DNA from: Tridacna crocea
Lineage: Eukaryota; Mollusca; Bivalvia; Cardiida; Cardiidae
Assembly (NCBI GenBank): GCA_943736015.1
Contig: OX031068.1
Location: forward strand, 26,048,296-26,112,295
Direction: 5' to 3'
DNA: 64,000 nt
The position numbers and the translations under genes were made by a program. Below the pieces are notes generated by a model that did not search any database, was not told the origin of the DNA, and saw only the letters and a program-made list of their open reading frames with translations. Shown here piece by piece: positions 14,481 through 29,836 of this stretch. Within the stretch, counting starts at the first letter, position 1; every line of letters begins with the position of its first letter.

Positions 14481-14645
14481 TGGGAAAATGATAAAAAGAT
14501 GTCCCATACATGTAAGCTTATCTCAAATATTCATCATATTTCCCTTTATAGCTGTTTTGGACAAAAAAGTCCTTTGTGCAAGTTGTTGTCAATCGACTTG
14601 AGGACAACTTTGGTACGTTAGGGAAAACTTTTATGGAAAGCATGA

Positions 14646-14873
14646 TTAACCCTTTACTCCATAGATACTCATTTCTACACATTGCTTGTAGGAGCCTTTG
14701 GAAAACATTGTGGCAAAAGGTGAAATTGCTCGTGATGAGCAATTTCACCTTTTGCCACAATGTTTTCTACACTACTAAAGGTGTCATATAAACATAAGAA
14801 ATGGCTTCATCCTTGCTGTTATTTAGGGTCAATTAGAGATACCATAGAAATGCCTCATGGGGTAAAGGGTTAA
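14646..14873 (+). mobile_element. Family B TTAA element, full length
   Basis: TTAA flanks both ends. The ends are CCCTTTACTCCATAG and CATGGGGTAAAGGG. The hairpin is centred on GCTCGTGATGAGC. It is close to the copy at 7328. Confidence 0.92.
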
Positions 14874-15197
14874 TGATTGTAATAGGCTATCAGTGTCATG
14901 GTGGGAACCTTTATAGGGAGGTGGTCAATAGTTTAGAGTAATTGCATGCAGTTAATGTCAATATGCAGCCAATAAGGAAAAGCAAATATTATCCACTAAG
15001 CTCAAATAAGCAATTCCTCTCCTTGTAATGTTTCAATAAGTTTTGAACTAATATGGCTAGAGAGATTTCAGAAACCATATTGTGATGAATTACTTGTACA
15101 GATCAGTTTTATCCATTTACCTCAATGTTTTTTTTTTTAACCAATAAGTCGGCCATTTGAAGCAAACCTTTCAAATTCACTGTACAAAATATGCAGT

Positions 15198-15395
15198 CTA
15201 GGTCTGTATTCATTAACAGTTCTTAAAACCATTCTTTGTCTTATTCTCCAAGATTTTCCAAGTATGAAAGTAACACAACTTCTGATTGGCTAAACCATTT
15301 GGTTTAGTCAATCAGTAATTATGTTTATTTCAAATTTGGAAAAAATTGAGAATAAGACTATCTAAAGCATGATTGGTGAAAACAAACTCTGATCT
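15198..15395. mobile_element. Foldback element, GGTCTGTATTCA type
   Basis: Sequence from TAGGTCTGTATTCATTAAC to GATTGGTGAAAACAAAC folds back on itself, with TTCTGATTGGCTAAACCA and TGGTTTAGTCAATCAG flanking the centre. It is homologous to 22635-22819. Confidence 0.65.
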
Positions 15396-15424
15396 TTAAT
15401 GTTCTAAGCTCTTTGGTTTACTAA

Positions 15425-15620
15425 GAGGGGTCCTGCATGGCTCAGTGGTAAAGTGTAGAACTGATGTCCTGGAGGTCCCGGGTTAGAGCCTTACTGGATC
15501 CAATGGGTCTTTTTGGGAGAGCCCTTGCGCAAAACAATCAAGAGCCCTAGCCTAGTACTATGAAGCATGGGAAATACATTGATATGTGAGCTTTTGCCAT
15601 GATATGACTGAAATAATGTT
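15425..15620 (+). mobile_element. tRNA-derived SINE
   Basis: A-box-like TGGCTCAGTGGTAAAGTG and B-box-like CCCGGGTTAGAGCC are followed by a body (CCCTTGCGCAAAACAATC) and a tail ATGACTGAAATAATGTT. A right-arm scrap of a TTAA element follows to 15757. Confidence 0.75.
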
Positions 15621-15815
15621 TTCAACAGGCTTTTTTCCCCATGTTCGTCAAGAGTCGGCATTGTAAATTTCAATTTTTGAAATATGTTTAATTTGTCGTC
15701 TGGAAGTGCTTTGAATTTGGACCTGTCTAAAATGTTGTCCTTTGGTAAGGAGTTAAACCAGTTGAGATGAATTTGCCATATTTTGGGGGTTTTACCAAGT
15801 GAAAGCTGAAAATAA

Positions 15816-16044
15816 TTAACCCTTTACTGCACGATAAAATTTTAGACTGGTCCAGATTGAAAGCACTTCCAGACAACAAAATAAACATAACTCAAAAATT
15901 GAAATTTGTTTCAAGCAGGGAAGAAAACATTGTGGGAAAAGGAGAAAATGCTGGTTACCAGCATTTTCTCCTTTTCCCACAATGTTTTCTAAAGGCTCTT
16001 ATCTCAGGGTCGTAAAAATTAGGGATTGTTTGGTAAAGGGTTAA
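15816..16044 (-). mobile_element. Family A TTAA element, full length
   Basis: TTAA flanks both ends. The ends CCCTTTACT and GGTAAAGGG are intact, and the hairpin is near perfect around GGTTACC. Confidence 0.93.
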
Positions 16045-16268
16045 TAACAATAGTGAAAGGGTGTTTTTTCAATCGTTAGTTTTTATGAAATAATCACAGT
16101 CAATTTATAAAGAAATATTTGGAAAAAACTAATCCTTTGAAAATTGGATAATTTCCTTTTATCAGTTGAATTCTCAAGATCAATTTGTGACCTCATAAAA
16201 GGCACAGTTTACTGATTCTTCAGTACAAGGCAAAACATTGAGACAAATGGATACAAGACAGTGCAGAT

Positions 16269-16467
16269 TGTTACGGGAGACCACTCCTTCCTGCATGGCA
16301 TTCTCCCGATTTAAATACAATACCTGGCTACTGCATCAGAGAGATATCTCTTTGGCTCAGTGGTTAAGGTATTGGCCTTGCGTCAGGGAGTTCCGGGGTT
16401 CGAATCCTGCTCGGTACCTTATTTCTGCCATGCATTTATTCATTTGTTTCTTTGTTACGGACTTTGT
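16269..16467 (+). repeat. 5' LTR (199 bp) of a miniature LTR element, containing a tRNA-like promoter
   Basis: It starts TGTTACGGGAGACCACTCC and matches 16592-16789 with about nine differences. Inside it, TGGCTCAGTGG (16353-16363) fits the Pol III A box and GGTTCGAATCC (16397-16407) fits the B box exactly, at a spacing normal for a tRNA gene. The tRNA-like block runs into GCTCGGTACC. Confidence 0.85.
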
Positions 16468-16475
16468 TCGTAAGA

Positions 16476-16493
16476 TGGGGGCTCGTCCGGGAT
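16476..16493 (+). promoter_or_regulatory. Primer-binding site, tRNA-Pro type
   Basis: TGGGGGCTCGTCCGGGAT begins with TGG, complementary to the tRNA 3' CCA, and is the standard tRNA-Pro-primed site for minus-strand DNA synthesis. Its position just inside the 5' LTR is what priming requires. Confidence 0.88.
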
Positions 16494-16580
16494 TGGCCAT
16501 TGAGCCATTAATCCCATTTGTTGTCCAAAATCGGACTTCCTGCCTAATAAGGCTTTGAGTCATCAATAAATGATGACTTT

Positions 16581-16589
16581 AAGAGGGGG
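16581..16589 (+). promoter_or_regulatory. Polypurine tract of the TRIM
   Basis: AAGAGGGGG lies directly upstream of the 3' LTR (two bases before TGTTACGG), where the plus-strand primer is made. Confidence 0.75.
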
Positions 16590-16591
16590 TG

Positions 16592-16789
16592 TGTTACGGG
16601 AGACCACTCCAATCTGCATGGCATTCTCCTGATTTAAATACAATACCTGGCTACTGCGTCAGAGAGATATCTCTTTGGCTCAGTGGTTAAGGTATGGCCT
16701 TGTGTCTGGGAGTTCCGGGGTTCGAATCCCGCTCGGTACCTTATTTCTGCCATGCATTTATTCATTTGTTTCTTTGTTACGGACTTTGT
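16592..16789 (+). repeat. 3' LTR of the TRIM, tRNA-like
   Basis: It is about 95% identical to 16269-16467, with A box 16676-16686 and B box 16719-16729 both conserved. One base in the A-B interval is deleted. Confidence 0.85.
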
Positions 16790-16819
16790 GTGATCATGTA
16801 CCTGCATTTTCTGATACTT

Positions 16820-17042
16820 TTAACCACCAAATAACAAAATTATGGACTCTTCCAATTTCAAAGAATCTGCTGATAACAATTTCAAAAGTGATATAAATAA
16901 ACCAAAATTCTTTGACAGGGTAGAAAACATGGGAAAATAAGAAAATGCTGGTTACCAGCATTTTTCTCCTTTTCCCATAATGCTTTCAAAAGTCTTTTCC
17001 AACAGGGACAGTAAAATCAGGGAATGTATTGTAATGGGTTAG
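16820..17042 (-). mobile_element. Family A TTAA element
   Basis: TTAA is on the left and TTAG on the right. The GGTTACC dyad is intact; the outer arms have diverged. Confidence 0.8.
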
Positions 17043-17422
17043 GGCACTTTCCAGCTTAAAATCACCTTGAATTTGCAATATTTTGATACTTTTCAGGAAC
17101 AAAACTGTCCAACTTGTTTATTTTGTATAGGGTGAAAAAAAAAAGAGGTTTCGATTTCCTGATCATGAGAACATGTTGCCACCTACAGAGATTTTTTTTA
17201 TTTTTTTTTTATGTTGCAGCAAATCAATTATCACTTTTTGAAATGTTGTGACTAATGGAGAATAACACATCATATTGAAATTTCCTTTTCGAGAGGAAAT
17301 AATCACATGCATTATAAATTATTACAAATATTTCATGTAAACGCTTTACTCAGTGACACCTTTTTAGAATTTTGCCAGCTGAAAGCATATGCAGACAACG
17401 AATAACATGTTGCAATTTATCC

Positions 17423-17651
17423 TTAAATCTTTACCACACAATCCCGACTTTTAAGGACCCTAAAGAAGAAGTCTTTGGAAAACACTGTGGGAAAAGGAGA
17501 AAGTGCTGGTAATCGGCATTTTCTCCTTTTCTCTCAGTGTTTTCTACTCTATCAAAGAGAGTAGTCATCATTTCATCAAAGTTTAATTTGTCGTCTGCAA
17601 ATGCTTTCAATTTGGTCACATCCCAAATTTTGTTATTTGGTAAAGGGTTAA
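17423..17651 (+). mobile_element. Family A TTAA element, full length
   Basis: TTAA flanks both ends. The hairpin centre has decayed to TGGTAATCGG. A scrap of another copy (17652-17700) follows. Confidence 0.88.
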
Positions 17652-17710
17652 AAGGGTAGAAAATATTAAGGGAAAAGCAGAAAATGCTGGTTACCAGCAT
17701 ACTGGGTCAT

Positions 17711-17937
17711 TTAACCCATTACCACACGACAAAATTTCAGACTGGTCCAAGTTGAAAGCATTTGCAGACGACAAAATAAAAATGACTGGAAAATTGAAAT
17801 TTGTTCTGTGAAGGGTAGAAAACACTGGGAAAAGGAGAAAATGCTGGTTACCAGCATTTTCTCCTTTTCCTACAGTGTTTTCAAAAGGCTTCTTTCTCAG
17901 GGGCGTCAAAAGTAGGGATTGGGTGGTAATGGGTTAA
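17711..17937 (-). mobile_element. Family A TTAA element, full length
   Basis: TTAA at both ends; ends CCCATTACC and GGTAATGGG; hairpin around GGTTACC. The CATTACC end variant defines a recurrent subtype. Confidence 0.92.
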
Positions 17938-18266
17938 ACTGAAGACTGGGTGGTAGAGGGTGAAGCATATTCGACAAAAAAAATTGTTTGAAGTGTTTGC
18001 TCCTTAATTATTGCAGGAAGTAATAGTTCATAAAAGAAATGTGAGAAATATTTCAAAAGTCTCAGTTTTAGTAAAAGTGTAAGGGGAAAGTGTCCTAGGA
18101 ATATTTAGTGATGATGGAAGAGATTTATGCATATACAACTGTTATATTAAGTGAGTTTTTCCTGTTTTATTTTGTATGGCCTTGGTAGTCGTTATCCAAT
18201 GTTGCTGTAGAAGTACATCTGTTTATATACAACTGTTGATTTCCTTTGAAAAGGCTGAGCAAGAAA

Positions 18267-28520: not shown

Positions 28521-28606
28521 TGCCCTTGTGGCCTACAATGCCATTCCCCATTGTTATAGTCATGAAGTAATGATACCAATTGCCAACATTTATTTTTTTT
28601 TTTCAG

Positions 28607-29720
28607 TCAAATTCATCAATTGGTAATTATGAAGAAGTTCATGTTGAGGAATCTGTTCACTACCATCAGCATCACCAGCAAGGATATCCATACTACCAAG
28701 GCCATGAAAATATGTCACCAAGACACACAGTGCATGGTTCCCCAACAATGGCTTCCAAGTTTAGCCATGAGCCACAGAGTCCTGGTCATACAGGACATAG
28801 GCCCTTTTCCTATGGAGCTCCTGTATTGCACTCGCCAAAACACAAAGTAGCGCCCTCTACTGGACAACAACAACATCATAATGGCCACTCTTACCCACAA
28901 GTTTTACCAAACTATCAGTATACAGAAATGCATACAGCAAGTCCAGCTACTTCCTATGGAAAACATGAATCTGTGTTTCATCCACAGCCTCACAGACCCC
29001 CACCTCATGGGCCTCCACCCCCGCCCCCTTCAGCAGGTCAGGGCCACAGGGGATCACCTTCCCCTCACCCACAGAGCCCCAGGTTACAGAGACATTCTAT
29101 TACACCACTGGATGGAAATCATCAAAGACAGCCTATGAGAAGCCCGGGTTCACCAAAGATGATCCCAAAGTTGTCACAGAGAAGCCATTCAGTGCCAAGT
29201 AGTAATGCAGTATTTGAACATGGATACCAGCCTGAGTCCACAGTCCCTGTGTCTCTGGGTGGAGACTACCTTACATTATACCAAGGCGATCGGGAACCAT
29301 CCCCGCCCTTACCTCCACCACCTCCAGAGATGTTGGAGTCATACACAGAACATAGCCCTTCCCCACCTCCCCCTGTCACCAATATGTCAAATGTGCCTCA
29401 TCATATGCAATACAATCCGCGTCTTCCAGCCCAGAATGTTGCCCCACCACAAAGTTCAATGTCGTATCAACAATCTCCACAGAGGTCAGAAGGACATGCT
29501 CCTCCCCCTCCACCACCCTTGTCAAATATTCCAACAAAGCAGAAGGTGTCATCTGACAGAAACTTTAACGTTCAAAAGGACAAAAGTGCAATACCATCCA
29601 ATGGTAAAATGGGAGCAATGAAGGGAGGACACTCTAGTAATCAAGGAACTTCAAGAGAGAGTTCCCCGGCTTTAGATGAACTACAGCAGAAGCTCAATCG
29701 AATACAACTCAGAAATGCAG
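28607..29720 (+). CDS. Large coding exon, His/Pro/Ser-rich disordered region with polyproline runs (exon c)
   Basis: A long T tract plus TTTCAG ends at 28606; donor GTAAAT begins at 29721 after GCAG. The exon is 1114 bp, enters in phase 0 and exits in phase 1, giving 371 full codons. The product begins SNSSIGNYEEVHVEESVHYH, continues with His/Gln/Tyr-rich and Ser-Pro-rich sequence, and has polyproline runs around residues 139-150 (PPPHGPPPPPPSAG), 244-252 (PPLPPPPPEM), about 263 (PSPPPPV) and about 314 (APPPPPPL). It ends in a charged, probably helical segment, LDELQQKLNRIQLRNAG. Repeated polyproline is typical of actin-regulatory or signalling scaffolds that bind profilin, SH3 or EVH1 domains, but no folded domain is visible and I assign no function. 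Without splicing, the frame runs past the donor to a stop at 29792-29794. This is the strongest coding call in the window. Confidence 0.92.
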
Positions 29721-29836
29721 GTAAATTATACAAATTTTTGGGAAAGACAGTTATATGTCTAGAAAGTGATATGATTATGTGGAATATAATTTAGCACATC
29801 TCAGCTACCCATGTGGCAAGCACAACACAACATTCC

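Follow-up and report, generated by a model that had tools for sequence, protein, structure and literature searches.

Structure of the element

The 64-kb window (the whole stretch of DNA analysed here) carries on its forward strand, at 16269 to 16789, what is likely a TRIM of the Helenus type, an LTR retrotransposon about 530 bp long that codes for no protein and has a tRNA-like A/B-box module in the LTR as its promoter. Its parts are listed in Table 1. The two direct repeats, 16269-16467 and 16592-16789, are 95.5% identical over 199 columns. The first-pass annotation, made from the sequence alone, had described them as two repeats of about 199 bp and about 95% identity, and had put the boxes, the tRNA-Pro primer sequence and the purine tract at the places where we also find them, with the same box spacings of 44 and 43 bases.

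The boundaries of the LTR had to be moved. Other copies run eight bases past the LTR end given earlier, to ...TTCGTAAGA (16475 in the window), and an exact 4-bp target duplication starts there. The LTR is therefore 207 bp long, the primer site begins at 16476 and the interior measures 116 bp. In the window copy the right-hand target duplication is absent and the 3′ LTR stops 8 bp short. The primer site had been placed 8 bases after the LTR, where the true offset is 0, and the interior had been given as 124 bp. The interior has no protein domain: the sole open frame of at least 90 residues over the window copy, a 119-residue frame at 16199-16555 spanning LTR and interior, matched no Pfam family at E up to 0.1.

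Table 1. Features of the TRIM copy in the window and the basis on which each was placed
Feature	Position	Second copy	Strand	Basis or remark
Whole TRIM copy	16269..16789		+	42 genome matches; blast anatomy of 90 loci; 3′ end 8 bp shorter than in other copies
5′ LTR, 207 bp, TGTTACG...CGTAAGA	16269..16475		+	Ends placed where flanks and 4-bp duplications begin in other copies
TATA-like TTTAAATA, 5′ LTR	16310..16317	16633-16640	+	Sequence; putative role
A box TGGCTCAGTGG, 5′ LTR	16353..16363	16676-16686	+	11/12 of strict consensus
B box GGTTCGAATCC, 5′ LTR	16397..16407	16719-16729	+	Sequence
tRNA-Pro primer-binding site, adjoining the LTR	16476..16493		+	18/18 complementary to tRNA-Pro 3′ end with CCA
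Interior, 116 bp, without protein domain	16476..16591		+	Blast anatomy; Pfam search
Hairpin TCATCAATAAATGATGA, holding an AATAAA, immediately 5′ of the purine tract	16560..16576		+	Minimum-energy fold
Purine-rich tract AAGAGGGGGTG	16581..16591		+	Same position in other copies
3′ LTR, last 8 bp absent	16592..16789		+	Aligns to LTR positions 1-199 only

Three further features of the window were noted. A MITE-like palindrome, whose hairpin core of about 68 bp is almost perfect, is extremely dense, with 82 merged matches in the 64 kb (15922-15990, for example), and resembles Rfam miRNA-precursor models only below their gathering scores. A second tRNA-like stretch at 15434-15510, about 0.8 kb upstream of the TRIM, has an A-box-like TGGCTCAGTGG and a degraded B box, GGTTAGAGCC; it is 73-76% similar to the TRIM box region over 51 bases and is perhaps the head of a SINE. 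The open frame at 28574-29794 encodes 406 residues rich in proline and histidine, without a Pfam match up to E 0.1, and is perhaps an exon of a host gene.

Copies in the host genome

The 521-bp unit was searched against its own genome (1.049 Gb), with scoring restricted to the best among 3,255 first-look candidates. This gave 42 matches including the unit itself; among these best candidates the remaining matches were 95-97% identical to it, and some overlapped within tandem arrays. An exact 23-nt pattern spanning the junction of LTR and primer-binding site occurs 1,889 times in the genome, and the exact 18-nt LTR 5′ end 3,905 times; the reversed pattern was found 0 times in either case. Chance is therefore excluded as an explanation of the arrangement in the window. 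Complete two-LTR copies are mostly 528-532 bp long, and among the copies in the 90 loci examined by blast anatomy the primer site and purine tract hold fixed positions. The idea of a very small LTR element whose LTRs hold a tRNA-like promoter module has thus stood up. In IMG/VR, from which records near the window's genome may be excluded, an exact 19-nt A-box pattern found no relatives.

Target duplications were scored in 60 loci, of which L001-L030 were the copies most like the query and L031-L060 were taken in order of location. They comprise 56 insertions distinct by their flanks, 45 with complete ends. An exact 4-bp duplication flanks 39 of the 45. Among the other six, one has a match of 3 bp only and five have none of 3-6 bp; a 5- or 6-bp match was seen in no case. 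In the location-ordered half, 22 of 23 insertions have the 4-bp duplication. The prediction of many copies and solo LTRs was accordingly correct, and that of 5-bp duplications was not.

Solo LTRs were sought among the first 100 exact LTR starts listed, all on contig C1, which fall into 68 clusters, 40 of them single. No exact primer site lies within 400 bp of 34 of these 40 single LTRs. Ten of the 34 were inspected: three (L092, L095 and L096) are solo LTRs flanked by exact 4-bp duplications, three have a purine tract upstream and resemble remnants of 3′ LTRs (L094, L097 and L099), one reaches the LTR end with a single base of flank (L098), and in three a matching end was not seen (L093, L100 and L101).

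Arrays of at least three LTRs account for 6 of the 45 complete insertions, and in five of the six a single 4-bp duplication surrounds the whole array. Head-to-tail arrays and a tRNA-like box module could also come from a tandem pair of tRNA-derived SINEs, or from a satellite, that mimics an LTR element. That reading fails because LTR-interior-LTR units are bounded by 4-bp duplications, and the fixed positions of primer site and purine tract and the existence of solo LTRs also tell against it; we give it a negligible probability. The arrangement is thus neither confined to one locus nor a plain tandem SINE, the two outcomes that the first-pass annotation had named as fatal to its proposal.

The family is well formed and has been recently active. 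The location-ordered sample contains 27 distinct elements, 23 of them complete for both LTRs, and in 12 of these 23 the two LTRs are identical; the mean divergence of the pairs is 0.9%, in a sample picked by exact junction and so biased toward young copies.

At five places on different contigs (L004, L005, L006, L018 and L020, on C14, C9, C11, C13 and C10 respectively) one and the same TRIM copy, with an identical 4-bp duplication, sits in shared flanks, which on either side are 98.3-99.9% identical for at least 0.77-1.5 kb. The TRIM appears, from these flanks, to be carried there by a longer dispersed repeat. At L004 this repeat has five open frames of at least 80 residues, several of which belong to the TRIM.

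The tRNA-Pro primer and a candidate Gypsy partner

A pattern search of the genome for tRNA-Pro genes found four, identical to one another, with the anticodon AGG as read from the sequence. Their 3′ end with CCA added is complementary to the primer site at 18 of 18 positions. The exact 18-nt site occurs 2,790 times in the genome. Among the first 100 sites listed, 68 join a TRIM LTR and 21 join the LTR of one Gypsy family. The other 11 include four TRIM copies (L064, L071, L081 and L083), one copy of the Gypsy (L080), and two sites, at 7484122 and 14769178, for which an exact TRIM LTR start is found at a distance of 207 and 204 bases. This brings the totals to 74 for the TRIM and 22 for the one Gypsy family, 96 for the two families together, with four sites assigned to neither.

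In the Gypsy copy that was studied (L061/L091) each LTR is 562 bp long, and the two share 99.3% identity. Its domains are arranged in three open pieces: SCAN with the integrase zinc-binding domain, then the integrase core, then reverse transcriptase with RNase H. A stop codon separates the first two pieces and the frame changes before the third. Integrase thus lies upstream of reverse transcriptase (rve at L091:2629-3267, RVT_1 at L091:3201-5027). In this the element is like Gmr1-type Gypsy elements, whose clade is marked by integrase before reverse transcriptase (PMC6238403, in the part used here), and its SCAN domain in the Gag part recalls the frog Gmr elements, more than half of which have SCAN according to the portion of PMC4131045 used; the likeness is one of domain order and content. 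The stop codon and the frame change distinguish the one interior studied from Gmr1-type Gypsy. At G000:C1:12449279-12460571 the exact 3′ end of the Gypsy LTR recurs three times at intervals of 5,637 bases, which suggests a putative tandem LTR-interior-LTR-interior-LTR array of the same family.

An integrase acts on the LTR tips and determines the length of the target duplication. The Gypsy LTR starts with TGTTATG and the TRIM LTR with TGTTACG, and the ends read TCGTAACA and TCGTAAGA respectively. Target duplications of the Gypsy are 4 bp in six of six copies and 5 bp in none, and its exact LTR 3′ end occurs 1,449 times in the genome. The first-pass annotation had suggested looking for a coding LTR element with the same ends; this one has similar tips and the same primer site. 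Given what integrase does, this abundant, Gmr1-like SCAN-Gag Gypsy is the best candidate source of enzymes for the TRIM, on circumstantial grounds, and it may be what mobilises the family.

Outside the tips, the two elements have little in common. An exact 21-nt match covers the primer site and 3 further nucleotides, other matches are at chance level, and comparison of the TRIM LTR with the Gypsy LTR gave no match at E up to 1. Extended similarity of the two elements was accordingly rejected, only the 21 nt at the primer site standing out. With so little common sequence, a Helenus-type TRIM might be mobilised by some other Gypsy family, the more so as the survey took in exact 18-nt primer sites only and assigned 4 of the 100 listed to neither family. 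We regard a different helper as rather unlikely, since one Gypsy family predominates among the surveyed sites, with a nearly identical LTR pair, uniform 4-bp duplications and well over a thousand exact LTR ends.

Promoter boxes and the absence of T4 runs

Measured from start to start, the A and B boxes are 44 bases apart in the 5′ LTR (16353/16397) and 43 bases apart in the 3′ LTR (16676/16719), and 43 bases separate the start of TTTAAATA from that of the A box downstream. The A box, TGGCTCAGTGG, had been called consensus-matching. This was slightly too strong: it fits 11 of the 12 positions of the strict consensus form TRGCNNAGYNGG, and a scan of the window for the strict form gave no site.

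Box conservation was assessed in 121 LTR copies (113 young, 8 old), distinct by letters and flanks, with both LTRs of an element counted. The first base of the B box is A instead of G (AGTTC) in 48 of them. When the 11-base windows of the LTR were ranked by variation, the A and B boxes fell at 15% and 63% in the 121 copies and at 21% and 12% in the eight old ones. This is not significant, and conservation of the boxes was rejected as proof of Pol III use. Nor does the LTR hold a functional tRNA, which we rejected on the results of two programs: ARAGORN reported none in the window, and Rfam gave no tRNA match up to E 5 in 14500-18000.

These results would suit an ordinary TRIM transcribed by Pol II from the TATA-like TTTAAATA, with A and B boxes left over from a SINE that had entered an ancestral LTR. 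Such an element would explain why TTTAAATA lies 43 bases 5′ of the A box, why the boxes are not significantly better conserved than other LTR stretches, and why neither program recognises the module as a tRNA. We nevertheless hold it to be unlikely, in view of the distribution of T4 runs and of AATAAA signals.

T4 is a stop for Pol III. In the 323-bp unit of LTR plus interior there are no T4 runs on the sense strand, compared with 3.2 expected, and only 0.9% of 5,000 shuffles were this low. A4 is not depleted in the same unit (1 versus 0.6 expected), so the depletion concerns the sense strand only. T4 is absent from 22 of 23 complete elements; it is present in none of the 113 young LTR copies, as against four of the eight old ones, and the one Gypsy LTR examined has seven in 562 bp by an unshuffled count. 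The window LTR also contains no AATAAA signal, the sole one being in the interior. Depletion of T4 is an indirect sign that the TRIM may be transcribed by Pol III.

A possible replication cycle

The cycle that we propose takes as its basis the observed anatomy, primer match, duplication length, copy number and near-identical LTR pairs of the TRIM, and the abundant Gypsy with like features. Pol III would start in the 5′ LTR slightly upstream of the A box, at a predicted position of about 16335-16343, and with no T4 stop its transcript would cross the whole element. Transcripts of SINEs run into the flank. The TRIM transcript would do the same, passing the 3′ LTR, because the 3′ LTR has no T4. 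Host tRNA-Pro would prime minus-strand DNA at the adjoining 18-nt site, and the strong-stop DNA would transfer to the 3′ LTR. This transfer could still work despite read-through into the flank, because the strong-stop DNA may pair inside the 3′ LTR. The purine tract would prime the plus strand, and Gypsy integrase, supplied in trans, would insert the product with a 4-bp duplication.

In full, the TRIM would be a Pol III-transcribed LTR parasite, purged of T4 over its whole length and living off one abundant Gmr1-like Gypsy with which it has only the primer site and LTR tips in common; the two would form a parasite and helper pair for animal Helenus, and their host lineage would be one that the published species list does not include. 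We offer this combined reading tentatively, rating its chances slightly below even.

About two thousand exact junctions in one genome, together with many identical LTR pairs, show the success in animals of LTR elements whose promoters are SINE-like, and the TRIM now has a candidate partner that can be tested. Should the Gypsy prove to mobilise the TRIM, a primer site, a purine tract and LTR tips would be all the sequence that mobilisation in trans requires, and the two elements would illustrate how an LTR-type cycle can draw on a Pol III transcript.

Comparison with known elements

Small-RNA-gene promoters in the LTRs of TRIMs are also found in Cassandra and Ajax, which have 5S rRNA sequence there (PMC10886601, in the part used). 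The present element differs from them in that the 69 Rfam matches obtained for 14500-18000 at E up to 5 include no 5S rRNA family.

The biv-TRIM elements of bivalves, as described in the part of PMC6934838 used here, resemble the window TRIM: their LTRs measure about 200 bp, and they also occur as solo LTRs and in tandem arrays. Their interior differs. It is 77-80 bp long, contains the conserved motif TGATCCCAAAGGAC and has no evident primer site, whereas the window TRIM has one for tRNA-Pro. With up to 3 mismatches allowed, the motif does not occur inside 16269-16789, and its 9 occurrences in the window compare with 6.7 expected.

The closest likeness is to Helenus, the TRIMs with tRNA-derived LTR sequence described by Kojima in 2024 (PMC10886601) and mentioned, in the portion available, in a meeting report. 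Among titles and abstract openings in the literature we recognised no other tRNA-promoter TRIM. According to the parts of Kojima's description used here, Helenus occurs in six animal phyla, fungi and one plant, so the first-pass statement that no animal case was known to have been described does not hold. Its members are 311-1263 bp long, from a screen under 1000 bp. Those of animals make 4-bp duplications, with Gypsy as the proposed partner; those of bivalves have tRNA-Pro among their primers. One Helenus family forms tandem arrays. In most families the tRNA-like part is not a functional tRNA, and Pol III transcription is put forward there too as an inference. The window TRIM is likewise a short two-LTR element without protein, with tRNA-derived A and B boxes in the LTR, a primer site for a tRNA 3′ end adjoining the 5′ LTR, a purine tract before the 3′ LTR, 4-bp duplications, solo LTRs, tandem arrays and no functional tRNA.

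The family is thus a further Helenus-type TRIM, of a kind already described in 2024 and so not new in kind. The likeness rests on described features rather than on published consensus sequences, and the exact family may already be listed. Its junction count exceeds those of the animal families counted by Kojima except the zebrafish one, the counting methods being different. The parts of that description used here contain neither a candidate partner clade nor a depletion of T4, and the present host is probably a mollusc outside its species list, whose species do not fit in genome size and karyotype. One muscle-myosin exon of the host scores 151.8-157.5 bits with its eight best chains, from squid and scallop, and 128.9 with the next, from a tarantula; the collection compared is not known to include an annelid muscle myosin, and two other myosin exons were uninformative. 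Sixteen contigs of the genome measure 40-77 Mb, and with C6 and C16 the chromosomes would number about 18. What the family adds to the known picture is therefore a candidate Gypsy partner, the missing T4 runs and, probably, an extended host range.
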